Positions 22,138 through 40,945 of a stretch of 42,984 nt of DNA are shown here, in pieces; the first letter of the stretch is position 1; every line of letters begins with the position of its first letter. This DNA comes from a virus. The notes under the pieces were generated by a model. It did no database searches. It had not been told where the DNA came from and saw only the letters and a program-made list of their open reading frames with translations. Both the position numbers and the translations under genes were made by a program. The DNA is taken from positions 1 to 42,984 of IMG/VR virus record IMGVR_UViG_3300036846_000026. The stretch is one strand, 5' to 3'.

Positions 22138-22180
22138 AGTATAGGCCATCCGTGGCGATTTTGTTTAGCAATTCATGCTA
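22138..22180 (-). promoter_or_regulatory. Dyad-type promoter for the 21772 gene
   Basis: On the minus strand the dyad TAGCATGAATTGCTA (22166-22180), 22 bases and TATACT (22138-22143) precede a leader ending CTTAACGAGGAG. There is no -35 match. The dyad overlaps the stop of terL. Confidence 0.7.
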
Positions 22181-23740
22181 CTTGATTCCCGCCAGCCGTT
22201 TGAATTTTGCCTTAGGGTCATCTCTTAGGTTCAGCTCAAGGTTGACTGCCATGGTCAATGTATCCACCTGATCGTCATGCTTGTGAGTCCCGTCCGCTGT
22301 GAACCCAGCAATCTCGCTCATCAATGAGTTAACCCATGGTGACTCTTCCGGAAGTACAACATTACCAGCCTTAATCTGTGGCATAGCAGAAAGCACGCGA
22401 GTTAGCTTATCTGTGTCAGGGATGAACTCCTCGATTGGTGTTCTCATCTTGCGCCCTGCTGACTGGATAAGACCAATACCAGATGCCTTCTTCTCGATAA
22501 CAACCTTGCGAAGTATTCCCTCAGTCTTATTGGAGAACCTTGCCGACTCCTCCAATTCCATTAGCTCAGACTCAAGCTCTGGGGCTTCCCACTTCCCACG
22601 CTTCTGGTCCAGTAAGTAAATCTTGCCATCCTTATATCCCCATAGCTGCAGTACGCTAAAGTCACTGTATGACTTGGTCGTCAGTGCCGTATCCGCCGTA
22701 ATGAATCGGTAGTCGTACTTCGCTGGAGGTCTGTTCTCAGAACCGTATCGAGCAAACATATCCACGGTCATCAAATTACCGCCGAGTGCTATTGGCTCTT
22801 GCTGATACTGAGACATAAATGTGTAATTGTCACTATCCATCATGGCAACTAGGTCATGAACGGATTCCTTGGCTGGGAAATAGCTATAGTAACGCTCTCC
22901 ATCACGCTCTACATATGGAGATGAAAGGACTTGCTCCCTAAACATTGGCTTCAACCAATCAGGAAGTTCATTCTCGTATTCCTGCGTAACTAAGGCTGGT
23001 ATCTTAACAAGGTCAAAGTTAATACCCATACCACCATCAAGCATAAACTGAGTGCAGTCTTGAACGTGAAGCCTCTGCTGGATAAGGACTATTGGAGTAG
23101 ATTTTCCTTCAACGGACATCGCCCTACGAGAACGTATAGTGTTCTTTAGCAATGTATTTACAGCCTCTCGCCTAACTTTGCTAAATGCATCGTCTGGCTT
23201 TAGCGGGTCATCTAAAAGAATAATGCCGCTATAGTCATCTGTCATATACCCGCCACGGCTACCTGTAATCTGTCCAGCCATAGATTTAGATATGGATTCA
23301 AACTTAACTTTCCCATTCTCATCAAGGACTTGTATTTCATCGTCTCGGCATGTGCCAAAGTTGCTAGGCCATAACTCCTGGAACTCATTGCTTTGAATGA
23401 GGTCTCGAACTCGTTTGGAGTTGCGCTTAACGAGTGAATCAGAGAACGAAAGGCTAAGGTTCCTAACCTTGCTCACTTTTAGGAAGCTGTATACAGGAAA
23501 GTGAATGGAGAAAATCTCGGTCTTTCCGCCGCCAGGAGGGCAGTTAATAATCGTATCCTTACGCTCGCCTTTAATTAGCTCATCAATAATCCTGCACAAG
23601 TAAAGGTGGTGCCATGAAGGAATGTACTTTTCTGACTGTGTAATCTGGAACCACAGTCGCAAGAAGGTGCCGAAGTCATGCAAAGAGAGGCCTTTGATAG
23701 CCTCTTTTTGCTGTGAAGATAAATCTTCCCAAACTATCAT
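22178..23740 (-). CDS. terL: Terminase large subunit
   Basis: A 520-residue packaging motor. The ATPase half shows Walker A CPPGGGKT (67-74), Walker B IILLDDP (173-179) and the adenine/arginine region VLIQQRLHVQD (218-228). The nuclease half shows FITADTALTTKSYSD with Asp350, and DDQVDTLTM (489-497). These are the RNase H-type acidic residues. It starts on the last base of the small subunit stop. It cuts concatemers and pumps DNA through the portal. The sequence does not show cos or pac type. Confidence 0.95.
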   Translation of the reverse strand: MIVWEDLSSQQKEAIKGLSLHDFGTFLRLWFQITQSEKYIPSWHHLYLCRIIDELIKGERKDTIINCPPGGGKTEIFSIHFPVYSFLKVSKVRNLSLSFSDSLVKRNSKRVRDLIQSNEFQELWPSNFGTCRDDEIQVLDENGKVKFESISKSMAGQITGSRGGYMTDDYSGIILLDDPLKPDDAFSKVRREAVNTLLKNTIRSRRAMSVEGKSTPIVLIQQRLHVQDCTQFMLDGGMGINFDLVKIPALVTQEYENELPDWLKPMFREQVLSSPYVERDGERYYSYFPAKESVHDLVAMMDSDNYTFMSQYQQEPIALGGNLMTVDMFARYGSENRPPAKYDYRFITADTALTTKSYSDFSVLQLWGYKDGKIYLLDQKRGKWEAPELESELMELEESARFSNKTEGILRKVVIEKKASGIGLIQSAGRKMRTPIEEFIPDTDKLTRVLSAMPQIKAGNVVLPEESPWVNSLMSEIAGFTADGTHKHDDQVDTLTMAVNLELNLRDDPKAKFKRLAGIK

Positions 23741-24240
23741 TACAATTCTCCTAGCACTGACTTGATTGCGTCCTGAATAGTCTCACCATCATTGACGACA
23801 TTACTATTGTTTAGGTTAATCTCTGCACCCTTATCAATACCAAGGTCCTTACCAATGAGGCTGGCGTTGATTACTCCATTTGCTGCAAGCTGATACTTCT
23901 GCTCGAACACCACATTATCAATCCACTCCATGATGTGTGCATATGCCGGGTCCTTGCGGAACCTAGAAAATGTTGCCATTGATAATCCAGTGAACAGCAC
24001 GAGTCCATTGATAGTGAAAACTCTAGGCTTAGTAACAAGGCTCTGTGTTACTTTGCCCTGGAATGCTGCATTCTCGCACGTCTTAATCTGATTGGTATCC
24101 GCCCATTCGAAATATGATATTGCCAATGCCTCGAATTGCTCAGGCGTAATATCGCTACTGCGGGTTCGCTTTTTATATAACTCTTTAAAGCTACCGCCAG
24201 ATGCGCGGCCAGTCTCTTCATTCTTTGTTAATTCACTCAT
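23740..24240 (-). CDS. terS: Terminase small subunit
   Basis: A 166-residue protein starting MSELTKNEETGRASGG; GGAGG stands five bases upstream, whereas the longer frame to 24312 would begin inside a terminator. Residues 35-140 (YFEWADTNQIKTCENAAFQ, then TKPRVFTINGLVLFTGLS and FEQKYQLAANGVINASLIGKDLGI) match the small terminase family of P22 gp3. It binds the packaging start site and loads the large subunit. Confidence 0.9.
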   Translation of the reverse strand: MSELTKNEETGRASGGSFKELYKKRTRSSDITPEQFEALAISYFEWADTNQIKTCENAAFQGKVTQSLVTKPRVFTINGLVLFTGLSMATFSRFRKDPAYAHIMEWIDNVVFEQKYQLAANGVINASLIGKDLGIDKGAEINLNNSNVVNDGETIQDAIKSVLGEL

Positions 24241-24285
24241 ATCATCCTCCGTTATGTTGAATCTAATTGTAACAGATGACAGGCA

Positions 24286-24309
24286 TAAAAAAAGCCTCCC
24301 GAAGGAGGC
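24286..24309 (-). terminator. Terminator after the tRNA/small-gene unit, upstream of terS
   Basis: On the minus strand GCCTCC-TTCG-GGAGGC is followed by TTTTTTTATG. It ends the transcript from the 24708 promoter unless read through into the packaging genes. Confidence 0.88.
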
Positions 24310-24323
24310 CAATAACGAGGGTA

Positions 24324-24503
24324 CTACATGAACTTAACGAGAACAACTGTGAACTTGTGGTAGCCTGGGTCAGCACCAGACTGAACCTTAGCGATGGCTA
24401 CAGCTTCTTCCGCGGACTCTGCTGCAACTGACGCCATGTATGTCGATGAGCATGACTTGCACTGCCTACCCATGAGTTGAATCTTTAAATGAACCTGCCA
24501 CAT
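24324..24503 (-). CDS. Small protein with CxxC pair (59 aa)
   Basis: A 59-residue protein, MWQVHLKIQLMGRQCKSCSS, ending KFTVVLVKFM. AGGAG stands ten bases before the ATG. Cys15 and Cys18 form a single CKSC pair, followed by an Ala/Glu-rich helix (AAESAEEAVAIAK). The beta-helix-beta plan looks like a small ligand- or RNA-binding fold, but I do not recognise the family. It lies directly behind the tRNA, on the same transcript, and is followed by a strong terminator. Confidence 0.7.
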   Translation of the reverse strand: MWQVHLKIQLMGRQCKSCSSTYMASVAAESAEEAVAIAKVQSGADPGYHKFTVVLVKFM

Positions 24504-24521
24504 GGCAAATCTCCTTGAAGT

Positions 24522-24598
24522 TGGCGCACCGAACAGGATTCGAACCTGTAACCAATGAGGTAGAAGCTCATTGCGCTATCCAATTGCGCTATCAGTGC
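24522..24598 (-). tRNA. tRNA-Arg (anticodon UCU)
   Basis: All arms can be folded by eye. The acceptor GCACTGA pairs with TCGGTGC (one G-T). The D stem is GCGC/GCGC, and the anticodon stem ATGAG/CTCAT holds the loop CTTCTAC. The T arm is ACAGG-TTCGAAT-CCTGT. The discriminator is G, with CCA encoded. UCU reads AGA and AGG, which are rare in enterobacteria and appear often in this phage's coding regions. It lies downstream of a sigma70-like promoter at 24708-24737. Confidence 0.95.
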
Positions 24599-24707
24599 GA
24601 AGGCTGGTTACGGGTCTCCAGCGAGCTTTCCACAATGCTCCGATGATTTAAGTAGCTAATCCGCTTAGTGCGTTCCGTCTTGGACGGCTCTCTGTGCTAC
24701 GGGATTA

Positions 24708-24737
24708 ATGATATACCAGTCAGGAATCCCTGGTCAA
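24708..24737 (-). promoter_or_regulatory. Sigma70-like promoter for the tRNA unit
   Basis: On the minus strand TTGACC (24732-24737), 18 bases and TATCAT (24708-24713). The leader between it and the tRNA contains a CCGTC-CAA-GACGG hairpin. This promoter has a good -35 and no dyad. Confidence 0.72.
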
Positions 24738-24839
24738 TCACTTCTTACTCAAGCTATTGTGAATCAGCATCAACAGCCCAATGTTTAAGCAGATAATGCC
24801 AGCTGAAGTGATAACCTCATACCATGCGATGCTATTCAT
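24738..24839 (-). CDS. Tiny membrane protein (33 aa)
   Basis: A 33-residue protein: MNSIAWYEVITSAG, then a hydrophobic span IICLNIGLLMLI and a short basic end SLSKK. One membrane segment with the positive end in the cytoplasm is likely. Its ATG overlaps the stop region of the gene at 24832, so translation is coupled. Its function is unknown; small membrane peptides of this type are common in phage early regions. Confidence 0.6.
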   Translation of the reverse strand: MNSIAWYEVITSAGIICLNIGLLMLIHNSLSKK

Positions 24840-25071
24840 AAATCGACTCCCCGTTTTCGCGCTTACCAACGATGCCGTTAAGGTTACCAGCAATCCAGCA
24901 GAACTTTAGCTTGTCTATAATCGTTGCAACTGGTGCATGATGTGCACTAATAACTTGAGCGACTAGCTTGTCGTTCTTGCGGTCAGCCTTATCGAGTCGG
25001 CTAAAGGATTCGTTGAGCTTCTTAGCCTGAGCCTTTACTGCGTTAAGTTCCGCTTCGTTTAATCCGAACAT
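24832..25071 (-). CDS. Small hypothetical protein (79 aa)
   Basis: A 79-residue protein, MFGLNEAELNAVKAQAKKL. Its first 60 residues are charged and helical (SFSRLDKADRKNDKLVAQVI), followed by FCWIAGNLNGIVGK. I do not recognise a family. It overlaps the upstream 44-aa gene and the downstream membrane peptide, forming a compact three-gene string from the promoter at 25224. Confidence 0.7.
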   Translation of the reverse strand: MFGLNEAELNAVKAQAKKLNESFSRLDKADRKNDKLVAQVISAHHAPVATIIDKLKFCWIAGNLNGIVGKRENGESIYE

Positions 25072-25193
25072 TGTTTACCCTCTCTCTCTTTCCACATATT
25101 CATAAGCTCAAAGTACTGCATCGCTTCTTCACCATCTTTAGCGTTGTCCATCATGCGCTTGCACCATGCGCTAGGTAATTCGTTCACAGCCAT
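25059..25193 (-). CDS. Small hypothetical protein (44 aa)
   Basis: A 44-residue protein, MAVNELPSAWCKRMMDNA, ending EREGKQCSD. TGGAG stands just upstream of the ATG. Its 3' end overlaps the start of the next gene by 13 bases. It is the first gene behind the dyad-type promoter at 25224. No domain is recognised. Confidence 0.65.
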   Translation of the reverse strand: MAVNELPSAWCKRMMDNAKDGEEAMQYFELMNMWKEREGKQCSD

Positions 25194-25223
25194 TCTCCAT
25201 TATTGTTTGCTTTCAATAAGGCC

Positions 25224-25266
25224 ACTATACCAATGGCCTTTCGGAAAGTCTTAGCAAAAAGTGCTA
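25224..25266 (-). promoter_or_regulatory. Dyad-type promoter for the 25193-24738 genes
   Basis: On the minus strand the perfect dyad TAGCACTTTTTGCTA (25252-25266), 22 bases and TATAGT (25224-25229). The TAG of the dyad is the stop codon of the gene at 25264. Confidence 0.72.
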
Positions 25267-25410
25267 TTTGATGTTCTGCGTCTTCATTACTTCGATAACC
25301 TTTCCACCAAGAACCTCATGTTGCTTGATGGCTGACTCTTTAGTCTCATGGACGCGCACGTGCTCGACGCTGTTAAACTTGCCTGTGTAGTAAGTGTGTA
25401 TGTAAATCAT
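25264..25410 (-). CDS. Small hypothetical protein (48 aa)
   Basis: A 48-residue protein, MIYIHTYYTGKFNSVEHVRV, ending EVMKTQNIK. It follows a beta-helix-beta pattern like its two upstream neighbours, which begin MKYYTIM and MKYYVYL; the three may be diverged duplicates. TGGAG precedes the ATG, which overlaps the upstream stop (ATGA). The stop is part of the operator dyad. Confidence 0.65.
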   Translation of the reverse strand: MIYIHTYYTGKFNSVEHVRVHETKESAIKQHEVLGGKVIEVMKTQNIK

Positions 25411-25547
25411 TTTGTCTCCAGAATCTTAACTTCAGTGAATCGTGTTTTTAATGCCCTGGCGAAGTATATCGCCGTATCTTTGTCGACGAACTGGCTATGC
25501 TCTAACCATTCCTCTCGAACCTTAACCATTATTGTATAGTACTTCAC
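25407..25547 (-). CDS. Small hypothetical protein (46 aa, GTG start)
   Basis: The reading from GTG at 25545-25547 gives 46 residues, MKYYTIMVKVREEWLEHS. The GTG overlaps the upstream stop (GTGA) and AGGTGA stands just before it, so I prefer it over the ATG six codons on. The N-terminal MKYY is shared with the next gene upstream. No family recognised. Confidence 0.6.
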   Translation of the reverse strand: MKYYTIMVKVREEWLEHSQFVDKDTAIYFARALKTRFTEVKILETK

Positions 25548-25690
25548 ATGTCACCTATTATGTAAGATTCATATCCTTCGAAGTACAGACACTCTGAATG
25601 GTCACTTGCTTCCTCATACGACTTATACTCACCAACAAGGATGTCATCACACCCATTTTCATCACGCTCAAGATATACATAGTATTTCAT
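25544..25690 (-). CDS. Small hypothetical protein (48 aa)
   Basis: From the ATG at 25688-25690 this encodes 48 residues, MKYYVYLERDENGCDDILVG, very acidic and Tyr-rich. AAGG lies nine bases upstream. A longer version starting at 25756 (MLDLILNDIALQRG, 70 aa) overlaps the stop of the gene upstream and could be made by coupling, but has no ribosome site. The MKYY start repeats in the next gene. Confidence 0.6.
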   Translation of the reverse strand: MKYYVYLERDENGCDDILVGEYKSYEEASDHSECLYFEGYESYIIGDM

Positions 25691-25748
25691 CTTGCTAACC
25701 TTTGGTCTGTATGCCCCACGCTGCAGGGCAATGTCGTTAAGTATCAAA

Positions 25749-25991
25749 TCAAGCATTGTACGTTTTAGTATGAGGTCCAGCCATAAGCTCACCAACCTGA
25801 GCGCCTGCGAGTGCCACTGAAAGCGCCTCATACTGTCGCCAAGCGTTGCAATCATCGAAGCTAAGGGGTTTTACCACCTTGCGAGTTAATTGCTCTACAA
25901 CCTCACTTACGCACTCTGTAGCTGCACATCTTGATTCGAGTTGCTCGAGTAAATCTGAAGCCTGTGCTTCGGTGATATTGATAGTAATCAT
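25749..25991 (-). CDS. Small hypothetical protein (80 aa)
   Basis: An 80-residue protein, MITINITEAQASDLLEQLES, mostly helical, ending GELMAGPHTKTYNA. GAGGG stands before the ATG. It is the first gene behind the dyad-type promoter at 26023. No family recognised; it has two cysteines in CAATEC. Confidence 0.68.
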   Translation of the reverse strand: MITINITEAQASDLLEQLESRCAATECVSEVVEQLTRKVVKPLSFDDCNAWRQYEALSVALAGAQVGELMAGPHTKTYNA

Positions 25992-26022
25992 TTTGTAACC
26001 CTCGTTTGTTGTCGATGAAGTA

Positions 26023-26065
26023 ACTATAGCAAACTCCCTCCGTGGAGTTTTAACAAAAAGTGCTA
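26023..26065 (-). promoter_or_regulatory. Dyad-type promoter for the 25991-25264 genes
   Basis: On the minus strand TAGCACTTTTTGTTA (26051-26065), 22 bases containing an ACTCC/GGAGT hairpin, and TATAGT (26023-26028), then TACTTCATCGACAACAAACGAGG. Confidence 0.72.
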
Positions 26066-26066
26066 T

Positions 26067-26384
26067 TTAGTCCTTAACAATGATGTTTTGCTTCTTGTTG
26101 TATTCATTAAGCTTTTTCTCTGCATTAAACATGGCAATAGCCTTTTTTTCATTGAGAGCCTTAACCTTAATGTGCCTCTTTATTTTATATTCATCTTCGT
26201 TTTTAATCATCCCTAACTCAAACTTAGCGTCAAGCTTGTTAATCTGATTTGTAATTCTTGTTATTGCTTGCTTGTCTACAGTCTCCATCATACTCATGAT
26301 TCTATTGTTGTGTGCATCTCTTGTGATGTAGATTGGTACATTCATATCACGCTTAACTTGAGCTCCAAAGTTGAAAACTGACAT
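26067..26384 (-). CDS. Hypothetical basic helical protein (105 aa)
   Basis: A 105-residue protein, MSVFNFGAQVKRDMNVPIY, Lys-rich and helical after residue 40 (NQINKLDAKFELGMI, then KKAIAMFNAEKKLNEYNKK). It starts on the last base of the upstream stop, so it is coupled to the 198-residue protein. Nucleic-acid binding is possible from charge alone. Its stop is one base from the dyad. Confidence 0.7.
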   Translation of the reverse strand: MSVFNFGAQVKRDMNVPIYITRDAHNNRIMSMMETVDKQAITRITNQINKLDAKFELGMIKNEDEYKIKRHIKVKALNEKKAIAMFNAEKKLNEYNKKQNIIVKD

Positions 26385-26980
26385 TACATAATCTCCTTAA
26401 TCAAACCGTTCAGGGAATCTTCCAATTGAGCTACAGTCTTCTTATACCCAGAGAACTCTTCCGCGCTAAAGTCACTAGCATCAACTCGCTTAGCCATGTC
26501 CTTAATCCTTTGCACAAGCTCAATAATCTGTTCTTTGTTGACGGTTGACTCTGACTTGCGCTTAGGCTTTGATACTCCTTCTTTAACTGTTACAACGAAG
26601 TACTTGCTTGGCTCACCTGGTAATGTGTCGTGAAGGTCGCTACCAATGCAGAACTTGCTCTTGATGACTGCCGACAAACCTCTGCGCCCAAGGTGACGAT
26701 TAATTGTGTTCTTAACATAACTGGTACTAATGATGTGTTTAAGATACTCTTCTGCGTCCATGTTAAGCTCGTTAATCTTTACTTCAGAATGGTCCATGCC
26801 ATTCTCTACTGCTTCAAGCTGAGCATTCTTGAACAGAATGTAGTTAACACCGAAAGCGAACTCACCAATGCCCTTGTCAACATAGTAGTCACAGAACTCA
26901 CGAATGAAGTCTGCTGGCGATTGCTTTCTATAGAACTTGGAAACCTTACTCTCAATCTCGATTTTCATATCTTCAGTCAT
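26384..26980 (-). CDS. Hypothetical early protein (198 aa)
   Basis: A 198-residue protein, MTEDMKIEIESKVSKFYRKQ. The first 130 residues look like one folded domain (ADFIREFCDYYVDKGIGEFAFG). A basic linker (KPKRKSESTVNKEQ) and a C-terminal coiled coil (IIELVQRIKDMAKRVD..YKKTVAQLEDSLNGL) follow. I do not recognise it. It is the first leftward gene beside the AT-rich region at 27 kb and has a promoter with a real -35 box, so it is probably expressed very early. Confidence 0.75.
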   Translation of the reverse strand: MTEDMKIEIESKVSKFYRKQSPADFIREFCDYYVDKGIGEFAFGVNYILFKNAQLEAVENGMDHSEVKINELNMDAEEYLKHIISTSYVKNTINRHLGRRGLSAVIKSKFCIGSDLHDTLPGEPSKYFVVTVKEGVSKPKRKSESTVNKEQIIELVQRIKDMAKRVDASDFSAEEFSGYKKTVAQLEDSLNGLIKEIM

Positions 26981-27021
26981 TTCGTAATCCTCGTTAATCC
27001 GACCATCTTGCCGGTGAGATA

Positions 27022-27050
27022 ACTATACTAAAAGTGAACATTGTATGCAA
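27022..27050 (-). promoter_or_regulatory. Leftward early promoter with -35 box and no dyad
   Basis: On the minus strand TTGCAT (27045-27050), 17 bases and TATAGT (27022-27027). It has the same -10 context as the dyad promoters but carries its own -35. Confidence 0.7.
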
Positions 27051-27069
27051 CATGTATTTTAATGTAATT

Positions 27070-27470
27070 ATCACATGTACAGAATGAGATTGGAAATTAT
27101 CCTTATAAAGCAATTGATTGCATCCCTGTTCATCTAGTTCAACTTCGTACACCTATCCGAAAGGGGGTACCTTTATATTTACCTTTATAAATTGCCTTTT
27201 TAGCCTGAAAAGTAACCAATATGTCCCTTTTCTTGAAAACTAACCATTTCCCAATATCTTGACATATACAGGTGAACACATGCCATTTATGTCTACTATT
27301 TATATATTTATAATAATAATAATAATAAAAAAGCTATATATTATATATAGATATAGTAAAAGTTGTACGCGTTCACTTCTGGCGTATAGCGTTCATCGAC
27401 CCAAAAAAGGAGAAATTTGAACACATTTGTACGGCTTGTACGCAATAATGGCGTACAACATCACTGAGAG
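27070..27470. other. AT-rich, GTAC-box region between divergent genes (copy 2); candidate replication origin
   Basis: No gene is supported here. The (AAT)n run at 27311-27327, the block TATATTATATATAGATATAG (27336-27355) and GTAC boxes at about 27078, 27150, 27166, 27366, 27430, 27439 and 27453 repeat, in the same order and orientation, the layout at 840-1030. TTGTACGGCTTGTACG (27427-27442) is the inverse of 724-739. Leftward genes lie on one side and rightward genes on the other. Direct evidence for an origin is lacking. Confidence 0.5.
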
Positions 27471-27567
27471 AGAAAAAGTTGACACATATATAGATGAAAT
27501 CCACCTCCCCATTCCATATCTCAATCATCTCCACATACCAGGACTGTAAAAGTCACAATCCAATTAT

Positions 27568-27585
27568 ACATACAGTAGTGTATGT
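27568..27585. repeat. Inverted repeat CATACA-GTAG-TGTATG
   Basis: ACATACAGTAGTGTATGT has a 6-bp inverted repeat (CATACA/TGTATG) with a 4-base centre. It lies about 70 bases upstream of the rightward -10 at 27657, so it could be a second operator type. It occurs once. Confidence 0.4.
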
Positions 27586-27618
27586 AAAAGTGATGTCTAA
27601 AATGAGAAAGCTAACCGA

Positions 27619-27662
27619 TAGCACTTTTTGCTAAAGACAGGATGATTCGACATGGCTATAGT
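27619..27662 (+). promoter_or_regulatory. Dyad-type rightward promoter for 27687-28539
   Basis: The perfect dyad TAGCACTTTTTGCTA (27619-27633), 23 bases and TATAGT (27657-27662), then TAGCTCAACGAAACGAACGAGG. The -35 position reads AAGACA (4 of 6). Confidence 0.75.
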
Positions 27663-27686
27663 TAGCTCAACGAAACGAACGAGGAA

Positions 27687-27788
27687 ATGGCAATGACAAT
27701 CAATAACGGGCAGGCAATCATCATAGCGGCATGTGCAATCCTGACAGGTATCCTTTCAATCATTAGCAATGGCGGCATCAACTTATGA
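27687..27788 (+). CDS. Tiny membrane protein (33 aa)
   Basis: A 33-residue protein, MAMTINNGQ, then a hydrophobic span AIIIAACAILTGILSII and a short end SNGGINL. GAGG stands just before the ATG. It overlaps the next gene (ATGA). One membrane pass is likely. It is the first rightward gene beyond the AT-rich region. Its function is unknown. Confidence 0.62.
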   Translation: MAMTINNGQAIIIAACAILTGILSIISNGGINL

Positions 27789-27967
27789 GCAACAACTTCA
27801 AGAAGCGCCTTAAAGCAGCCCTGGACGCAGGAATTGAGTACGACCTGGCAATGACAGTTGCATACGGATTAATCGAGCCAGAGACTGCATTAAAGATGCA
27901 GAATGACCATTACGAGGCGAAGCACACATGCCAGCCAATTAACCCATCAGCATACATTCCATTTTAA
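27785..27967 (+). CDS. Small hypothetical protein (60 aa)
   Basis: A 60-residue protein, MSNNFKKRLKAALDAGIEYD, with a helical N-terminus and LAMTVAYGLIEPETALKMQ. Its start overlaps the membrane peptide stop by four bases. It contains no recognisable domain. Confidence 0.65.
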   Translation: MSNNFKKRLKAALDAGIEYDLAMTVAYGLIEPETALKMQNDHYEAKHTCQPINPSAYIPF

Positions 27968-27977
27968 GGAGATTTAC

Positions 27978-28148
27978 ATGAAAGTTAAGCTAACACAACC
28001 AAATGAAGGCAATAGCAAGTTTGAGCAGTTCGGTTACAAGTCTGGAGATATTCTTGAGGCTAGTTACTACAAGCACGATGATATAATTGGTGTTCTTTGT
28101 GAAGGTAAAGTGTTCTTTAAAGGTGAATATGAGGTTATTGAAGAATGA
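27978..28148 (+). CDS. Small beta-rich protein (56 aa), related in pattern to its neighbour
   Basis: A 56-residue protein, MKVKLTQPNEGNSKFEQFGY, ending FFKGEYEVIEE. AAGGAG stands seven bases upstream; the longer frame from 27903 lacks support. The body KSGDILEASYYKHDDIIGVL recalls the next gene (KGKIYEARYEPGSFSGQLL), so the two may be diverged duplicates of one small beta-barrel fold. Confidence 0.68.
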   Translation: MKVKLTQPNEGNSKFEQFGYKSGDILEASYYKHDDIIGVLCEGKVFFKGEYEVIEE

Positions 28149-28369
28149 AATTATTATGCAAAGGTGTTATTGAATCAACAGATAAGAAAGTAGTTACTCC
28201 ATTCACTAAAGGAAAGATTTATGAAGCACGATACGAACCAGGGTCATTTAGCGGGCAACTTCTTGGTGAGCGAGACAAACGAGGTAGCAATCCAGAATTC
28301 CAGATTGTCCGCACTTTTGATAATGCATGGATTTGCCTTGGTGTCGCTAAGTTTGTGGAGGCTGATTGA
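28145..28369 (+). CDS. Small beta-rich protein (74 aa)
   Basis: A 74-residue protein, MKLLCKGVIESTDKKVVTPF, with TKGKIYEARYEPGSF and ending AWICLGVAKFVEAD. The start overlaps the previous stop (ATGA). The KGKIYEA..: short beta-barrel pattern also fits the proteins at 28596 (KEGKRYQVK) and 21772 (NVGNLYDVV). No function is known. Confidence 0.68.
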   Translation: MKLLCKGVIESTDKKVVTPFTKGKIYEARYEPGSFSGQLLGERDKRGSNPEFQIVRTFDNAWICLGVAKFVEAD

Positions 28370-28371
28370 TT

Positions 28372-28539
28372 ATGTTACTTCCGTCTGATTTAGGTTATTT
28401 CGACAACGAAATCATAGCAAAGATGTCTGGCCAGGGGTGGTATCCATGGGACCACAAGACTCAGCTTGAAGACTTACTATCATCAAGAGAGATTGTAATT
28501 AAAGCCATCGAGAAAGCCCAAAAGAGCACCAATAGCTAA
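28372..28539 (+). CDS. Small hypothetical protein (55 aa)
   Basis: A 55-residue protein, MLLPSDLGYFDNEIIAKMSG, with WYPWDHKTQLEDLLSSR and a helical end EKAQKSTNS. TGGAGG lies about a dozen bases before the ATG. It ends the first rightward unit. Confidence 0.6.
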   Translation: MLLPSDLGYFDNEIIAKMSGQGWYPWDHKTQLEDLLSSREIVIKAIEKAQKSTNS

Positions 28540-28563
28540 AACAACTACGCAAGGATGCGTTAC

Positions 28564-28596
28564 TATAATTTCAACGACAACGATAGGGTAATACAA
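28564..28596 (+). promoter_or_regulatory. Promoter for the 28596 gene
   Basis: TATAAT at 28564-28569 is followed by TTCAACGACAACGATAGGG, a variant of the shared leader. A degenerate dyad GAGCA-CCAAT-AGCTA stands at 28524-28538, 25 bases upstream; it is too weak to count as a site. Confidence 0.5.
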
Positions 28597-28982: not shown

Positions 28983-28983
28983 A

Positions 28984-29027
28984 TAGCACTTTTTGATAAT
29001 GACAATTATAAGCGAGAGGGGTATTAT
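28984..29027 (+). promoter_or_regulatory. Dyad-type promoter for the DUF3987 gene
   Basis: TAGCACTTTTTGATA (28984-28998), 23 bases and TATTAT (29022-29027). Here a good -35, ATGACA (28999-29004), abuts the dyad with a 17-base spacer. Confidence 0.75.
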
Positions 29028-32666: not shown

Positions 32667-32709
32667 ACTATACGTCATCCCTAAATTTATTTTTTAACAA
32701 AAAGTGCTA
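32667..32709 (-). promoter_or_regulatory. Dyad-type promoter for 32626-32155
   Basis: On the minus strand TAGCACTTTTTGTTA (32695-32709), 22 AT-rich bases and TATAGT (32667-32672), then TATCCCATCGAAACGAAGCG. Confidence 0.75.
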
Positions 32710-33421: not shown

Positions 33422-33464
33422 ATAATAGCGCCTTTCGGCGCTATGTGTTTAACAAAAAGTGCTA
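33422..33464 (-). promoter_or_regulatory. Dyad-type promoter for HNH and 32707, with hairpin spacer
   Basis: On the minus strand TAGCACTTTTTGTTA (33450-33464), 22 bases and TATTAT (33422-33427). The spacer holds the stem ATAGCGCC-GAAA-GGCGCTAT (33425-33444), almost the same as after the major capsid gene, so the previous transcript may end within this promoter. Confidence 0.7.
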
Positions 33465-34647: not shown

Positions 34648-34690
34648 ATAATACCAAATGCGAATGGTAGTGTTGTAGCAAAAAGTGCTA
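34648..34690 (-). promoter_or_regulatory. Dyad-type promoter for the intact metallophosphoesterase
   Basis: On the minus strand the perfect dyad TAGCACTTTTTGCTA (34676-34690), 22 bases and TATTAT (34648-34653). About 80 bases here are near-identical to the promoter of the second copy at 35900. Confidence 0.75.
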
Positions 34691-35844
34691 TTATTGATAA
34701 TCTTTGACATGCAAATCCTTAAGCATTTCAAATGGGATTGTTACGCGACCAACTTCACCATAACTTTTGTGATACGTGATTACGCTAGCACTACGACCAG
34801 CAAAGTAACCACCACTAGCGGAGTAATCATCCTTAGAAGTTAGAGTCTGGTGCATTTCAACAATAAACATATTTCCCTCTTTAACCTGGCGATTATGGAA
34901 GTGCCCGATGTGAATATAGCCAAACTCTGTTTCACCAAACATCTTAAGGTACTTATCTGCAAATACTGTTTCTAGCTTATCTCCTCTAGCACAATGCTCA
35001 TGATTAACACCAATAAAGCATTTGCCGTGCTTAATGGCGTAATAGACACCCTGCTCACCATGAACTTCAATTCTTGAGTTTGCCTCATAAACATGCTTAA
35101 ACATCTCGCGCAACCAAATACTTGAAGCATTATCATGATTTCCAGTTACAATCAACAAGTTAACCTTCTCATGCTTTGTTAAACAGAAATCAACAGCAAG
35201 TCTAATTGTTCTAATTGCAGTTTGAACAACCTAAAGAAACGAGTGTCAGCATCAAGCAAATGCCCAGAAGTTGGCGTTACAGCTTTAAATGAATCAAAGT
35301 GCATCCAGTCGCCTTGCTTGTTAATAATGCAATCCTTTGATTTTGGACTCATCTCAACTGCACTACGTAACCAATCAGAAATAAGCTGCTCTGCAATCTT
35401 GGTATCATAGTTGCTACCAGTTTCTTCAGTGCAAGCCATCATACCAATGTGCGCATCTGTAATCGTATATAATCTAAGCAAGTTCTCATCTTGCTTCGTT
35501 ACTTTTAGGTCAACTTCTTTGTACACAGGCATTTCATCGCAAAGAGCATCTACTGCAGCCTGCATAATTTTTGTTTGAGCTTCTTTATCAATATCACTCT
35601 CAACCCACTGACCTTTAACCTCACCTTCAGAAACAAGCAATGTACTAACACCTTTAACAGCATAACCTTCAGGAATCAATTTACTTACATCACTACCATA
35701 TCCAACGCCAGACTTAGCCAACTTGCTACGACGCAGCTCAACTTTGCGAATGCTCATTTCATACTTCTCTGCAATAGCTTTATTAGTCATGCCAGCTTCA
35801 AGTTCTGCTTTCAATTGATTGTTAGTAATCTTTCCAATAGTCAT
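34691..35844 (-). pseudogene. Second metallophosphoesterase copy, broken by one-base frameshift
   Basis: A tandem paralogue of the gene at 33465. The first part (MTIGKITNNQLKAELEAG, HTH, DAHIG, QGDWMH) reads 35844-35179 and stops. The rest (LLIVTGNHDNASSIWLR, NHEH, IGHFHN) continues in another frame to 34691. Alignment to the intact copy shows one base missing in a short A run (TTT at 35221-35223 on the plus strand). Restoring it joins RLFK to TAIRTIRLAVDFCLTKHEKV without a stop. It may be a real inactivation, a sequencing error or an unusual frameshift. The ATG at 35158 is not a true start. Confidence 0.8.
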
Positions 35845-35899
35845 TTAAAATTCCTGTTTAGTTATTATTTTCAATCAGTTGTTCATAATCAGTGCGTAT

Positions 35900-35942
35900 A
35901 TAATACCAAATGCAAACGCCGGTGTTGTAGCGAAAAGTGCTA
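35900..35942 (-). promoter_or_regulatory. Dyad-type promoter for the second metallophosphoesterase copy
   Basis: On the minus strand TAGCACTTTTCGCTA (35928-35942), 22 bases and TATTAT (35900-35905); one base differs from the perfect dyad. Confidence 0.72.
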
Positions 35943-35944
35943 TT

Positions 35945-36208
35945 CTAATCATTTAATTCTTTTAACCAGTAAAGTAGCGGCTCTTCATAATCTGGGCCCA
36001 GGTCAACATGCATCATTGAGTTGCTAGCTGGTGAGTAATACATAAGCGCGAGCTCATTAGTACCATTGAATACATAAACATCTTCGTAATCTGGTGGCAT
36101 CCAGTCCTCAAATGGAATCATTGCATAATACTTAAAGTCACTGAGCTCAACCTTCTCATACTTGCTTACATCAAAATCCAAGCCATTCAGGTAACAATCC
36201 ACAATCAA
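35945..36208 (-). CDS. Hypothetical acidic protein (87 aa)
   Basis: An 87-residue protein, MIVDCYLNGLDFDVSKYEKV, Tyr- and Asp-rich, with PFEDWMPPDYEDVYVFNG and ending LYWLKELND. It overlaps the previous gene by four bases (ATGA). No family recognised. It is the last gene in a string of five small genes from the promoter at 37012. Confidence 0.68.
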   Translation of the reverse strand: MIVDCYLNGLDFDVSKYEKVELSDFKYYAMIPFEDWMPPDYEDVYVFNGTNELALMYYSPASNSMMHVDLGPDYEEPLLYWLKELND

Positions 36209-36453
36209 TCCTTACTCTTAGTAATCTTAAACTTAAATCCCTCAGACTTAAGGAATTCATTAGTATCAATTCTAACGCCTGGCTTTACCCTGACGTACTT
36301 ACGTGGCCTTTCATCCATGTAGCTGAACTTTCCGTTGTAAACCACGCTGATATCCTTTATTTCGAAGTACTTTGATATCATCTTTATGTCATCCTGAAGA
36401 CTGGCCTCACCGCAGTGAGACCACACCTCTGCCCTACCCGTTACGACGATCAT
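36205..36453 (-). CDS. Hypothetical protein (82 aa)
   Basis: An 82-residue basic protein, MIVVTGRAEVWSHCGEASLQ, with DIKMISKYFEIKDISVVY and ending FKFKITKSKD. It overlaps the 42-aa gene at its start and the 87-aa gene at its end. No recognised domain. Confidence 0.67.
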   Translation of the reverse strand: MIVVTGRAEVWSHCGEASLQDDIKMISKYFEIKDISVVYNGKFSYMDERPRKYVRVKPGVRIDTNEFLKSEGFKFKITKSKD

Positions 36454-36562
36454 AATATGCCTTCAAGTAAATCATAGCCATGTTCCAGTGCCAGTCTCTA
36501 TTAGCCATATCTTCAAAGGCTCTGCGTGCATGGTGCTGTGCCACTTCAAAGTAAATGTTCAT
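36434..36562 (-). CDS. Small hypothetical protein (42 aa)
   Basis: A 42-residue protein, MNIYFEVAQHHARRAFEDMA, rich in His, Arg and Trp. It overlaps the stop of the upstream gene (ATGA) and runs 20 bases into the next. GAGGA lies about eight bases upstream. Its function is unknown. Confidence 0.58.
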   Translation of the reverse strand: MNIYFEVAQHHARRAFEDMANRDWHWNMAMIYLKAYYDRRNG

Positions 36563-36783
36563 TTGAAATCCTCTGGGCATTCTTCTTTAAATAACTCAAG
36601 CTCAAGGTCAATTTTGTGCTCATAATCGCAAGGGTCTAGGTTTAAGTAATCACTCTCGAAGCTCCAATCCAGTGATTCAGCCATCTCAAACACATCATGC
36701 CTATAACCAGCTCCTTTTAACTTAGATGACACTAATCCAAGGAACATCGCCCACTTCATGTCAAATGTTAATACGTAGCTCAT
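36559..36783 (-). CDS. Hypothetical acidic protein (74 aa)
   Basis: A 74-residue protein, MSYVLTFDMKWAMFLGLVSS, strongly acidic towards the end (DYLNLDPCDYEHKIDLELEL). Both neighbours overlap by four bases. An acidic DNA-mimic or inhibitor role is conceivable but not supported by a motif. Confidence 0.67.
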   Translation of the reverse strand: MSYVLTFDMKWAMFLGLVSSKLKGAGYRHDVFEMAESLDWSFESDYLNLDPCDYEHKIDLELELFKEECPEDFK

Positions 36784-36971
36784 TCTGAAACCTCATCAAA
36801 TTTTTCGCCGTAGCAGTTTTTAACAGTGTCTAAATCATCTTTGTAAGTCGCGCTAACTTCAAATGCGTAACCTTCACCATCATCAAGAACATAACCTTCA
36901 TCAGTAATAACCATTTCGTAAGTGTAACCAGTCTTGCGTGACTCGTAAGTTTTTCCAGTGTAAATCGCCAT
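36780..36971 (-). CDS. Hypothetical protein (63 aa)
   Basis: A 63-residue acidic, Tyr-rich protein, MAIYTGKTYESRKTGYTYEM, ending GEKFDEVSE. AAGG stands eight bases before this ATG; an earlier GTG overlaps the ribosome site. It is the first gene after the dyad-type promoter at 37012. The GKTYESR pattern again recalls the KGKIYEA-type small proteins. Confidence 0.67.
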   Translation of the reverse strand: MAIYTGKTYESRKTGYTYEMVITDEGYVLDDGEGYAFEVSATYKDDLDTVKNCYGEKFDEVSE

Positions 36972-37011
36972 TTCGTTCACCTTGTTTAGTTCGTTTCGTT
37001 TCGATGGAGTA

Positions 37012-37054
37012 ACTATACCCCATCTTTTGAAATCGTCTTTAGCAATTCGTGCTA
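37012..37054 (-). promoter_or_regulatory. Dyad-type promoter for 36971-35945
   Basis: On the minus strand TAGCACGAATTGCTA (37040-37054), 22 bases and TATAGT (37012-37017), then TACTCCATCGAAACGAAACG. The dyad is inside the last codons of the VRR-NUC gene. Confidence 0.75.
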
Positions 37055-37452
37055 TTTAAACAATCTTTAAATGCAGCCTTGAATGCTTCTAATCCATATG
37101 CTACCGAAGCAAAGCAACCACGCTCGCGACAACCACGGAGGAAAGCCTTCTGTTCTTCGCTGACTGGTGATGCTTGAGTCTTACCTGCACGCTTAAGCTC
37201 TATAGCTGCAAACATGCCGTTAGGAAGGATAATAGAAAAGTCTGCAACGCCTTTAAGTAAACCAGCCTGCTCATCCCTTAATGCACTATGCATTGTCTTC
37301 TTTCCTTCATTAACTGCGTGAAAAACAATGCACTCAGGGTGATTGTACTTAACCCAAGCAACTGCGTTAATTTGCTCTATATCTTCCTTGACGCACGTTT
37401 TAACTGGGCCAGCATAATACTCAATATAATCACCCTTGTCTGTAATATTCAT
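37039..37452 (-). CDS. VRR-NUC domain nuclease
   Basis: A 137-residue protein starting MNITDKGDYIEYY; GGAG stands eight bases before the ATG. The PD-(D/E)XK-type VRR-NUC core is clear: GVADFSII with Asp71, FAAIELKR with Glu85 and Lys87, and SEEQKAFL with Gln101. These small nucleases cut branched DNA in phages and often sit beside a helicase. Here a DECH helicase gene ends just one base upstream. The last residues (NSTNC) are encoded by the operator dyad itself. Confidence 0.87.
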   Translation of the reverse strand: MNITDKGDYIEYYAGPVKTCVKEDIEQINAVAWVKYNHPECIVFHAVNEGKKTMHSALRDEQAGLLKGVADFSIILPNGMFAAIELKRAGKTQASPVSEEQKAFLRGCRERGCFASVAYGLEAFKAAFKDCLNSTNC

Positions 37453-37453
37453 G

Positions 37454-39358
37454 TCAAATCTCCTCGCTGAAGTTCTTCTTAGCAATCAAGTCATCACCTT
37501 TAGCATTCTTTCGGTGAGTAACCAATTTCGGCGCCTGGATGAGATGTTTGTATTGCATAATCTTCTGCGCGTTACGACATCCAATCAGGAAGCTAGCAAT
37601 CTTCTTATCAACTACATGTGGTATTACTCCCTTCAGTTTCCACAGGTTCTTGCAAATCTGGCTATCAGATTCTGGGAAGAATCTCTCATAAGCTTTAAAA
37701 ACTTGGCCATCACAACCTTCCAGTTCGTACTTGAATATTATACCCGTCTGGTTTTTGGTCATAGTGACTTCAAAATTATGAACCTTGTGCCAATCACCTT
37801 TCCTGTACATCTTCCCGCTAAGCTTCTCGTTAGGGTCAAGAAGAACTCCATCACACTTGCGGCAAACCTTAGCTACAACATCATTTTGCGTTTTGCATTC
37901 TGGGCACTCGCGGCTGGTCCAGAAGTACTCGCATCTCTCATTATCGATTACATTCATACAGCGACGAGCGTAAAAGCTGTTTTCCATAGAGCAAATCGGA
38001 CATTGCTTAGGGTCTTTGCCTTGAGTGTATCGACGCTGAAACTGTGCTTGCTCAAGCATTGGATCGAAGTATAGGTCCCCTAACTCATCCATGCATCCAG
38101 TGTAATCCAGAACCAGTCCATCTTCCTTCACGATTCCAGCCTCAACCTGATGCTTCTTAAGCTTACGTATTACTCGGCCTATTAACTGAATAAGGAGCGT
38201 TAGACTTCCAATCTTACGCAGGATTACGCAAGTATCCCATAATGGGATATTAACCCCAGTTGTAAGTGCCATCACCTGGAATGTGTACTTAATCTCACCA
38301 CGAGCAACTTTGTCCAGAATATCCTTTCTCTGCTTTGCCCCAGTCTTATCAGTAATAATAGCGTAAGTGACACCCTCTGGAAGAGCCTCAGCAGCTTCCT
38401 TGCAATGTCTTTGTCCGGCGCACGTAACCAGTACTGCATTTCTGTTTAATGCTATCTTGTGCACCTGAGCCATGATTTGCTGGGTCATTGACGCAGACTC
38501 ATGAATCTTCTCTTCCATCTTCTTCATTGTCTTGGCATCGAAGTCTGCAATGCCATCATTACCATCCGAGTGGAACTCTGAAAGGTCATATCCAACACCT
38601 TCAGTTGCTCCAAATGTTGTTGGCACTACCGCACCGAAATCAACAAGGTAGTTGGTGTCGATATCAACAGGCGCCTCACGCCAAAAACCGAACTCCTTAG
38701 GGTTATCAATCACAATTGGCTCAGTGCCGCGAAATGCCGAACCAGTTACACCAAAGATACGCAACTGTCTACCATGCTTCTCCAAACATCTACGCTGAAG
38801 CTCACGAACAATCATAGTGTATTGAGTTCTTTTCTGGTCTAGCATCTGATCCCACGACTCATCGGCGTCAATTGATTCCTTAAGGTCTTTCCATTCCAAC
38901 TGGTGGCATTCATCAATCCCAAGAACCATTGGCGAGAAGTCACCAAGTGCTTTAAATAAACCGTTCACGACAGATCCATGCGAACCAACAACGATTGGGA
39001 AGTATGCAGACTTTGTGTTTAAACCTGCGCAATATACAGAGTTGGGTATACCAAAGTTTGTAATCTCTTCTGCATCCTGAGATACAATCTCAGCTTGACG
39101 GCTAAGCACCATCATTGAAAGGCCCATTTCTTTGCAGCGAGAGGCAATCATCGCGAGCATGATTGTTTTACCAGCTGATACGCTAGCCTTAATAACAAAT
39201 GGATGTTTGTACTTAGCAATGCGCTCAGAGATACGCTGATACACAACCGCTTGATAAGGATAAGGAACGATGTCACCAAAAGTGAACTTCTTCTGAATCT
39301 CTGCAATTTTCTCTACGCCAAGTTCATCAATCTGCTTTTGGATGCTAACAATCTTCAT
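37454..39358 (-). CDS. Superfamily 2 DECH-box helicase with zinc ribbons
   Basis: A 634-residue protein. Motifs in order: Walker A SAGKT (61-65), DECH (149-152), VTGSAFR (204-210), TTGVNIP (366-372) and QLIGRVIR (391-398). Two four-cysteine clusters follow, C453/456/467/476 and C485/488/499/502. These are probably zinc ribbons, and a C-terminal domain comes after them. It unwinds DNA, probably in phage replication or repair together with the adjacent VRR-NUC nuclease. Its promoter at 39393 is divergent from the HTH gene and contains the dyad. Confidence 0.9.
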   Translation of the reverse strand: MKIVSIQKQIDELGVEKIAEIQKKFTFGDIVPYPYQAVVYQRISERIAKYKHPFVIKASVSAGKTIMLAMIASRCKEMGLSMMVLSRQAEIVSQDAEEITNFGIPNSVYCAGLNTKSAYFPIVVGSHGSVVNGLFKALGDFSPMVLGIDECHQLEWKDLKESIDADESWDQMLDQKRTQYTMIVRELQRRCLEKHGRQLRIFGVTGSAFRGTEPIVIDNPKEFGFWREAPVDIDTNYLVDFGAVVPTTFGATEGVGYDLSEFHSDGNDGIADFDAKTMKKMEEKIHESASMTQQIMAQVHKIALNRNAVLVTCAGQRHCKEAAEALPEGVTYAIITDKTGAKQRKDILDKVARGEIKYTFQVMALTTGVNIPLWDTCVILRKIGSLTLLIQLIGRVIRKLKKHQVEAGIVKEDGLVLDYTGCMDELGDLYFDPMLEQAQFQRRYTQGKDPKQCPICSMENSFYARRCMNVIDNERCEYFWTSRECPECKTQNDVVAKVCRKCDGVLLDPNEKLSGKMYRKGDWHKVHNFEVTMTKNQTGIIFKYELEGCDGQVFKAYERFFPESDSQICKNLWKLKGVIPHVVDKKIASFLIGCRNAQKIMQYKHLIQAPKLVTHRKNAKGDDLIAKKNFSEEI

Positions 39359-39391
39359 TCTTCTATCTCTTCAATGTTCGTCCGATTTGTG

Positions 39392-39434
39392 TATAATACA
39401 TTCTATCGACAATATGTTTTAACAAAAAGTGCTA
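39392..39434. promoter_or_regulatory. Divergent promoter with shared -10 and one dyad
   Basis: GTATAATAC reads TATAAT rightward (39392-39397) and TATTAT leftward (39393-39398). The dyad TAACAAAAAGTGCTA (39420-39434) is 21 bases upstream of the leftward -10. For the rightward HTH gene it lies just after the predicted start of transcription and eleven bases before its ATG. Confidence 0.7.
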
Positions 39435-39445
39435 TGGAGGATTAT

Positions 39446-39910
39446 ATGACAGATAAATTAGAGAGTATCTATACCGCAACCATCAAAAAGGACGGCACTC
39501 CAAGAAAGCGTCCAACAAAATACTTTGTACTAAAGGATGAAGTAAAGGAAAGCCTTCGTGTAAGAATGATGGAGGTTATCAGATATCATGGCGGCCCTTA
39601 TCGCCTGGCCAAGAAATTAAGGATTGGCACTCAGGTTGTCAATGAGTGGGTTAAGCGTGGTAAGATATCATCACAAGGTGCACAGAAGATTCACAACCTA
39701 TATAAGAGGGAGGATTGCCAGGGTTATCGTGCATCATTCTGTCGACCTGACCTTGAGTTCACACCTAACGGAAAGCCACTAACCCTGAAGTGCAAGAAGC
39801 AACACATGCTTCGTATGGTTAAAGAAGAGGAACTCGCTCTTAAGCCAATCGTTCCTCGACACAAAAATAGACACAAGTACGAGAAGGAAACAGCACAAAA
39901 AGACAAATAA
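39446..39910 (+). CDS. Cro/YdaS-like HTH DNA-binding protein, candidate phage regulator
   Basis: A 154-residue basic protein starting MTDKLESIYTATIKKDGTP, with TGGAGG seven bases upstream. Residues 44-86 read VIRYHGGPYRLAKKLRIGTQ and then VVNEWVKRGKISSQGAQKIH, a helix-turn-helix. The following GYRASFCRPDLEF resembles the LRPDIF end of YdaS/Cro-like proteins. The C-terminal third is strongly basic. The TAGCA-N5-TGCTA dyad lies in its own leader, as expected for autoregulation. It is the only clear Cro-like HTH protein in the window, so it is my candidate for the dyad-binding factor. This is untested. Confidence 0.78.
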   Translation: MTDKLESIYTATIKKDGTPRKRPTKYFVLKDEVKESLRVRMMEVIRYHGGPYRLAKKLRIGTQVVNEWVKRGKISSQGAQKIHNLYKREDCQGYRASFCRPDLEFTPNGKPLTLKCKKQHMLRMVKEEELALKPIVPRHKNRHKYEKETAQKDK

Positions 39911-39915
39911 TATTT

Positions 39916-39950
39916 AGCGGTGAGGGATACACTTCCTTCATCGCTTTTTT
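39916..39950 (+). terminator. Terminator-like hairpin after the HTH gene
   Basis: AGCGGTGAGGGA pairs with TTCCTTCATCGCT (two G-T pairs), followed by TTTTTT. It lies just before the ribosome site of the primase-like gene. Confidence 0.7.
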
Positions 39951-39963
39951 ATTGAGGTTTTAT

Positions 39964-40881
39964 ATGCACTTTCAGAAGACAGATGTTCTACCAGCAATGC
40001 GTGGTTTATGGGCTAGAGCTTTCGTTGAGTTGTGTGGGGTTAGCCCTGCTGTATTTCAGACTAAGAAGCATGGGCCATGCATGTATTGTGGCGGCAAGGA
40101 CCGTGCAAGATGGACTGATAAAGTCTCAGAGCCTGGTGATGGCGGCTATATGTGCGCACAATGCGGAGGTGGTGCTGGCATAGACTGGATGGTAAGGATG
40201 CGTGGTGAGGGATTCGCTGAGGCGATTGATACCCTTGGTTCTTGGCTTAACCTTCAACCAACTGAAGTTATAACGAAAGCCAATAAGAAGGCGTCAAGAA
40301 CAAGTCTTTACAAGATGGGTTCCCAAGCAGAGCATGAGCAATGTCAGGCTGTTATTGATAGATGCAAGAAAGATGATTACCCAAATGTTATGCGTTATGA
40401 GGGATTCTATGATGGACGTGAGTTCCTGATTGGTGAGAAGGATAGTAAGCAGACATTAGTTTATCCATGTCATAAGGTTTTCAATGATGGTCTTGATGAA
40501 GAGGTTTGTAACTTACTTTTTATAAATGAGGAAGGAAATGAAAAGTTCTACGCACGTGATTATACTCGGCAGTCTGTTTGTTCCGTTGGTTCTGATATTG
40601 ATGATGGCCCAATTTATCTTTGTATTGGTTTTATGGATAGTTTGCACGTTAGCACTTGTGTTGGATCTCGCCAGGTCTATTGTTGCTTTACCAGTTACAA
40701 CCTTGAGATGGTCGCTTATGCCATCAAGAACAGGGAGGTTAGAATTGCTTGCTGGCGTCAAGATGATTTGGCGCTCGCTGTAGCTGATGATAGAGGGTTA
40801 AAGGTAGTGATTCCAAATGATGGATTTAACTTCAAAACGGGACTACAAAAAAGGTTATTTAACCCAGCAGATTTAACATAA
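39964..40881 (+). CDS. Zinc-ribbon primase-like protein with degenerate TOPRIM
   Basis: A 305-residue protein starting MHFQKTDVLPAMRGLWARAF; GAGG supports this ATG over the one upstream. Residues 38-75 are a zinc ribbon with Cys39, 42, 64 and 67 (PCMYCGGKDRARW, MCAQCGGGAGIDWM), as in phage and plasmid primases. The region 214-300 follows a TOPRIM layout, with IYLCIGFMDSL in place of the usual EG..D and ACWRQDD in place of DxD. The first catalytic Glu is missing. It may be a primase with altered chemistry or a DNA-binding partner of the DUF3987 ATPase. Confidence 0.8.
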   Translation: MHFQKTDVLPAMRGLWARAFVELCGVSPAVFQTKKHGPCMYCGGKDRARWTDKVSEPGDGGYMCAQCGGGAGIDWMVRMRGEGFAEAIDTLGSWLNLQPTEVITKANKKASRTSLYKMGSQAEHEQCQAVIDRCKKDDYPNVMRYEGFYDGREFLIGEKDSKQTLVYPCHKVFNDGLDEEVCNLLFINEEGNEKFYARDYTRQSVCSVGSDIDDGPIYLCIGFMDSLHVSTCVGSRQVYCCFTSYNLEMVAYAIKNREVRIACWRQDDLALAVADDRGLKVVIPNDGFNFKTGLQKRLFNPADLT

Positions 40882-40902
40882 ACCCTCTTCGGAGGGTTTT
40901 TT
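40881..40902 (+). terminator. Terminator after the primase-like gene
   Basis: AACCCTC-TTCG-GAGGGTT is followed by TTTT, a textbook rho-independent terminator that overlaps the stop region. Confidence 0.92.
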
Positions 40903-40913
40903 ATTGCCTACAC

Positions 40914-40945
40914 TATGATAGAATTGATTTTAGCAAATTGTGCTA
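40914..40945 (+). promoter_or_regulatory. Tailspike promoter region with downstream dyad
   Basis: TATGAT (40914-40919) could be the -10 for the tailspike. The perfect dyad TAGCAAATTGTGCTA (40931-40945) lies about 12 bases downstream, over or just after the transcription start. This differs from the -42 position of the other copies and would suit repression. Confidence 0.55.

Follow-up and report, generated by a model that had tools for sequence, protein, structure and literature searches.

Class II marbox promoters in T1-like phages, probably activated by the host regulators Rob, MarA or SoxS

In Enterobacteriaceae, the activators MarA, SoxS and Rob bind the marbox, 5′-GCAHWWWWTGYYAAA-3′ (PMC6900184), whose consensus has also been given as GCACTAATTGCTAAA (PMC5684230). 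One class II MarA promoter is lpxC-P2 (PMC12052159). Class II promoters of Salmonella match the -35 hexamer at 1.9 positions on average and none at more than three (PMC10268841), and in the Rob- and SoxS-micF complexes, region 4 of the sigma factor is displaced from the -35 region. In phage TLS, a reannotation published in 2024 described a 21-nucleotide (nt) direct repeat, aaATAGCACnnnTTGnTAAAA, which occurs at 21 places, is oriented with transcription, lies about 76 nt upstream of start codons and near -45, and is also present in T1, Rtp and Rogue1 (PMC11447400). Besides this unexplained repeat only three sigma-70 promoters were reported, and the role of the repeat was left open, with a stoperator, an enhancer or an UP element being proposed (PMC11447400). 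The same element recurs in the virus record IMGVR_UViG_3300036846_000026, analysed here over its whole length of 42,984 bases (hereafter the window) together with related T1-like phages. Judged from sequence and geometry, its copies very probably form class II promoters with a marbox, used by a family of lytic phages; host Rob, MarA or SoxS would activate them. The repeat as such is already known from TLS; what is new is that it has the sequence and the geometry of a class II marbox. No paper joining T1-like phages with the marbox or MarA was found in a search of open-access papers, and the literature search returned no transcription-start data for T1-like phages.

The original prediction listed twelve copies of a 15-base-pair (bp) dyad, TAGCA-N5-TGCTA, in the window, and all twelve coordinates are correct (six perfect copies and six with one mismatch). 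Allowing at most one mismatch, the dyad occurs 16 times in the window, compared with a mean of 2.36 and a maximum of 7 in dinucleotide shuffles (n = 100). When read forward as TAGCAC...TTGYTA, 11 of the 12 listed copies are followed 21-23 bp downstream by a -10 box (TATAGT, TATTAT or TATACT), as had been claimed, the gap from the dyad being 22 bp at eight sites, 23 bp at 27619 and 28984 and 21 bp at 39420. The twelfth copy, at 40931, has no -10 box at that gap; it is reversed and lies shortly before the tail fibre gene. The proposed position of the dyad centre at about -42 holds if transcription is taken to start (+1) at the conserved A that lies six bases past the -10 box.

The element is nevertheless not the symmetric dyad that had been described. 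Alignment of 101 promoters gave the asymmetric consensus AAATAGCACnnnTTGYTAAAa, in which GCA(C) in the 5′ half (-47 to -44) and a G at -38 hardly change, and the 3′ half varies at one position (C in 51% and T in 37%). Among 79 sites from seven phages, each position of the 5′ arm TAGCA is conserved at 87-100%, whereas the middle base of the 3′ arm is conserved at 56% and its partner at 99%. Moreover, AAA runs on past the dyad at the 3′ side, and the flanks are not symmetric. The earlier statement that the centre varies while the arms are kept is thus borne out for the centre, which falls into the recurring classes TTT, GAA, AAA and TAA (three of them named for TLS), but not for an equal conservation of both arms. 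The apparent symmetry of the box arises because the marbox consensus itself contains GCA-N5-TGC.

The match to the marbox was measured with a MarA matrix derived from 32 E. coli sites that were identified by chromatin immunoprecipitation and sequencing (ChIP-seq) and that also bound MarA in vitro; because the matrix was built from E. coli sites only, the test is not circular. Sites scoring above the ChIP median number 14 in the window, 25 in T1, 21 in TLS and 18 in each of four other phages, compared with 0.6-2.4 in shuffled sequences, 3 in T7 and 0 in lambda, the latter two serving as control genomes. No site above this median has a -10 box at 19-21 bp in T7 or lambda. A scan of the window and related phages for -10 spacing, suggested as a check in the original prediction, gave a sharp peak: at a score of at least 11, 78 phage sites lie exactly 20 bp before a -10 box and at most five lie at any distance outside 19-21 bp, while 200 column-permuted matrices placed at most 21 sites at one distance. 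Boxes in reverse orientation showed no peak in -10 distance in the MarA matrix scan of the phages. Phage sites picked solely by their dyad and -10 box correlate with the ChIP matrix at 0.915, in a single register and strand, the next best value being 0.54. Exact matches to the published marbox GCAHWWWWTGYYAAA occur 3-12 times per phage and are absent from T7 and lambda, and some phage boxes are letter-identical to E. coli MarA ChIP sites, namely GCACTAATTGCTAAA (yneO) and GCACTAAATGTTAAA (pheP). The pheP sequence GCACTAAATGTTAAA stands in T1 at 8365-8379, before the gene of the terminase small subunit.

In E. coli, micF and lpxC-P2 likewise have 20 bp between the 15-mer box and the -10 box. 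The geometry of the phage promoters is therefore identical to that of these host promoters, which lack a -35, and the idea of a class II activator site is strongly supported. Over 99 phage promoters, the -35 region matches the consensus at a mean of 1.81 of 6 positions; class II promoters are known for this lack of a -35. The fixed geometry also bears on the roles considered by the TLS authors, stoperators or UP elements, and on the alternative attached to the original prediction, a repressor operator over the -35 region, which are very improbable. The constant direction of the repeats, their distance of about 76 nt from start codons, near -45, and the overlap of a few boxes with late promoters would suit such roles. 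However, stoperators of the mycobacteriophage L5 type, which are dispersed asymmetric repressor sites, need no fixed distance to a -10 box, and the phage boxes are fixed at 20 bp. UP elements consist of A/T tracts, located at about -40 to -60, and have no specific G/C core, whereas the phage box has a near-invariant GCA(C) and a near-invariant G at -38. A repressor acting over a promoter devoid of a -35 would protect a promoter that is weak in any case, and neither the strict 20 bp nor the single orientation would then be explained.

In the window, the MarA matrix scan also revealed class II candidates missed by the dyad search, at 28526 and at 39893, before the primase gene. The promoters predicted in the window are listed below (scores from the MarA ChIP matrix; box, the 15-mer; gap, counted from the 15-mer box to the -10 box; ORF, open reading frame).

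22138..22178 (-): class II marbox promoter; box 22164-22178 (GCATGAATTGCTAAA), 20 bp, TATACT 22138-22143; score 17.0; gene behind it, 21772-22110, virion structural protein (phrog_14592).
25224..25264 (-): class II marbox promoter; box 25250-25264, 20 bp, TATAGT 25224-25229; score 14.6; small ORF 25059-25193.
26023..26063 (-): class II marbox promoter; box 26049-26063, 20 bp, TATAGT 26023-26028; score 16.8; ORF 25749-25991 (phrog_8335, no assigned function).
27621..27662 (+): class II marbox promoter; box 27621-27635, 21 bp, TATAGT 27657-27662; score 17.3; small early ORFs starting at about 27694.
28526..28566 (+): probable additional class II marbox, absent from the original list; box 28526-28540 (GCACCAATAGCTAAA), 20 bp to TACTAT, a weak -10; score 15.6; ORF 28596-28982 (phrog_2684).
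28986..29027 (+): class II marbox promoter; box 28986-29000, 21 bp, TATTAT 29022-29027; score 11.9; DNA helicase, 29058-30632 (phrog_2373).
32667..32707 (-): class II marbox promoter; box 32693-32707, 20 bp, TATAGT 32667-32672; score 16.8; ORF 32357-32635 (phrog_27467).
33422..33462 (-): class II marbox promoter with a hairpin in the spacer; box 33448-33462, 20 bp, TATTAT 33422-33427; score 16.8; HNH endonuclease ORF, about 32931-33398 (phrog_99).
34648..34688 (-): class II marbox promoter; box 34674-34688, 20 bp, TATTAT 34648-34653; score 13.2; DNA repair exonuclease, 33465-34592 (phrog_704).
35900..35940 (-): class II marbox promoter; box 35926-35940, 20 bp, TATTAT 35900-35905; score 12.1; split second exonuclease copy, both parts assigned to phrog_704.
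37012..37052 (-): class II marbox promoter; box 37038-37052 (GCACGAATTGCTAAA), 20 bp, TATAGT 37012-37017; score 18.6; ORF 36780-36980 (phrog_6031).
39393..39432 (-): class II marbox promoter; box 39418-39432, 19 bp, TATTAT 39393-39398; score 16.8; replicative helicase, 37454-39358; the box also lies 13 bp before the gene of a helix-turn-helix (HTH) regulator on the opposite strand.
39893..39933 (+): weaker class II marbox of the DNA primase; box 39893-39907, 20 bp to TACACT; score 12.8.

An AraC-type box at window position 30734 lies inside a gene and is probably due to chance. Other promoter types were considered and set aside on sequence: a sigma-54 promoter, in which the GG/GC spacing would be two bases short, and hairpin promoters of the N4 type. 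Perfect stems of at least 6 bases occur in 41 of 78 promoters (window 22138-39933 and six related genomes), compared with 7.4 in shuffles. These stems lie between the box and the -10 box or around the -10 box, are centred near -21 or -13 and vary in sequence; they may be terminators of the upstream genes folded into the promoter spacer. A common protein-binding dyad around the -10 box was likewise rejected, since column-pair complementarity revealed hairpins at two centres with variable sequence and hence no common operator.

The module formed by the marbox and the -10 box was present in all eight T1-like (Drexlerviridae-type) genomes examined, with about 20 copies at the same spacing in each of T1, TLS, Msk, Veterinaerplatzvirus T145P1, Klebsiella phage PG14 and phage A127. 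The boxes of the window match the aaATAGCACnnnTTGnTAAAA pattern of TLS with its direction kept, and before the helicase and primase genes they start at -71 to -77. That the element is an operator proper to one phage, as first suggested, is not supported; it is an asymmetric, family-wide marbox, whose most likely activator is a host protein. A class II box precedes the gene of the replicative helicase in 7/7 phages, that of the primase in 7/7 and that of a second helicase in 6/7 (one of them weak); other targets are nucleases and many small accessory genes. The original restriction to accessory and early promoters is too narrow, given that both helicases and the primase are included and that boxes at non-activating positions stand before some late genes. 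This arrangement is difficult to reconcile with boxes that act mainly as decoys, soaking up host MarA, SoxS and Rob and blunting the stress response, with activation being secondary. About 20 strong boxes per genome, multiplied by replication, could serve this end, and the abundance of Rob falls in cells infected by the unrelated siphovirus Dhillonvirus EE09. Decoys, however, need neither a fixed -10 distance nor an orientation nor a conserved placement before the same replication genes, and such a main function is scarcely credible.

The protein that reads the boxes was also sought within the phages themselves. No AraC-type HTH_18 domain was detected in the seven phages tested, the window included, while the same search detects HTH_18 in an E. 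coli control. A candidate encoded by the phage is the HTH regulator mentioned above.

39446..39910 (+): conserved HTH protein phrog_2856, "transcriptional regulator"; rejected as reader of the boxes.

This protein, present in 818 phage records and carrying a weak HTH_17/YdaS-like domain according to Pfam, was first favoured as an activator of the early promoters that also controls itself, owing to the box found directly before its gene in all seven phages compared. It was dropped because, in an alignment of the seven phages, its presumed recognition helix diverges (TQVVNEW, PQAVEEW, NQTVQGW, LKTVWGW) while the box stays unchanged. Furthermore, the box before its gene also serves the divergent helicase promoter, and the box is asymmetric and fits the matrix of an unrelated host activator, including the AAA outside the dyad. 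Hence, operators of phrog_2856 are an improbable explanation.

The simplest reader of the boxes would instead be a host activator, and the T1-like family appears, from the sequence comparisons made here, to drive about twenty promoters with a host activator of stress and antibiotic resistance. Rob is the first candidate because it is made constitutively. By analogy with published work on host promoters, the activator would sit on the box, displace region 4 of sigma-70 from the -35 region, contact RNA polymerase and recruit it to an otherwise weak -10 box. MarA and SoxS, or RamA in Klebsiella, would raise the output of the phage promoters in stressed or drug-resistant cells.

Several observations weigh against activation by these host regulators. 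Among the 99 phage promoters, 14 match the -35 at four positions or more. The degenerate class II boxes of the host genes fumC, inaA and sodA were not recovered by the ChIP matrix, which is a limit of the matrix; therefore the phage boxes resemble high-affinity MarA sites and not typical Rob or SoxS sites. In addition, Rob was reported to bind DNA with low specificity. Finally, phage PsgS01F (PP134917.1), for which Pseudomonas syringae is the recorded host, carries 18 strong marboxes, most of them at class II spacing, although MarA, SoxS and Rob are described in Enterobacteriaceae and Pseudomonas lies outside this family. Either the recorded host is questionable or a different activator recognises the boxes of PsgS01F.

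Boxes at other positions were found near late genes. Two of them are in the window.

40929..40943 (-): reversed marbox, not class II, upstream of the tail fibre gene and near or downstream of its presumed start site; score 17.6.
6076..6090 (-): marbox, not class II, added by the matrix scan; it overlaps the start site presumed for tail gene J (2689-6054); score 15.0.

A reversed box precedes the tail fibre gene in the window, T1, Msk and Veterinaerplatzvirus, and a box lies near the start site of tail gene J in the window, T1 and TLS; a box also stands before the T1 terminase gene. In T1 (about 15069-15085) and TLS (about 15025-15041), a reversed box is located between the -35-like TTGACG/TTGAAC and the -10 box of the major head promoter, where it is predicted to repress this late promoter. 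One could imagine that the boxes of tail gene J, the tail fibre, the T1 terminase and the T1 and TLS major head hold the late genes back as part of a copy-number clock built on host MarA, SoxS and Rob, to which the whole family would have given over its early-to-late programme; this is rather unlikely. In such a clock, class II boxes would switch on replication and accessory genes, while boxes over or just past late start sites would hold back the late genes, until thousands of boxes on replicating DNA titrate the regulator, so that early promoters would fall and late ones open.

The window is a whole virus record, in which DNA matches to T1-like coliphages are only patchy. It encodes terminase, portal, tail J, two helicases, primase and the HTH regulator typical of the family, and its HTH protein is less than 60% identical to that of every phage record; the virus is probably a new member of Drexlerviridae, at the level of a genus. 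A tRNA-Arg (TCT) gene is located at 24522-24598 (-), between the terminase region and the accessory genes, and an arginyl-tRNA has been reported from further T1-like phages. The phrog_704 DNA repair exonuclease is tandemly duplicated (33465-34592 and 34691-35844), the second copy being split into ORFs 34691-35158 and 35179-35844, and each copy has its own class II box. A marbox-free promoter at 26999-27045 (-), with TTGCAT, 17 bp and TATAGT, precedes ORF 26384-26980 and may act as an immediate-early promoter that does not need the host activator.

Activation by host Rob, MarA or SoxS offers a concrete and testable answer on the transcription of T1-like phages, which are common laboratory contaminants and candidates for phage therapy. 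If true, a major phage family relies for its gene expression on regulators that control multidrug efflux as well; therefore antibiotics, salicylate, redox cyclers and mar, sox or rob mutations should alter phage growth. It would also bear on phage-antibiotic combinations and on host escape through loss of the regulator.

In the middle promoters of phage T4, a MotA box and a -10 box occur without a -35. There, the phage itself encodes MotA and AsiA, and the centre of the MotA box is near -30. The promoters described here are alike in that an activator site replaces the -35, and differ in that the activator is apparently a host protein, with its site near -42. Compared with the repeat of TLS, T1, Rtp and Rogue1, the element is the same, with the same direction, start-codon distance and core classes, although the TLS study identifies neither a binding protein nor a fixed distance to the -10 box (PMC11447400). 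The closest likeness is to the class II promoters of MarA, SoxS, Rob and RamA in Enterobacteriaceae, such as micF and lpxC-P2, which share the consensus, the forward orientation, a centre near -41/-42, the 20 bp and the lack of a -35. In contrast to these host promoters, the phage boxes, whose dependence on the regulator is predicted, drive replication and accessory genes and are present as about 20 near-consensus copies in each lytic phage genome of 45-50 kb.

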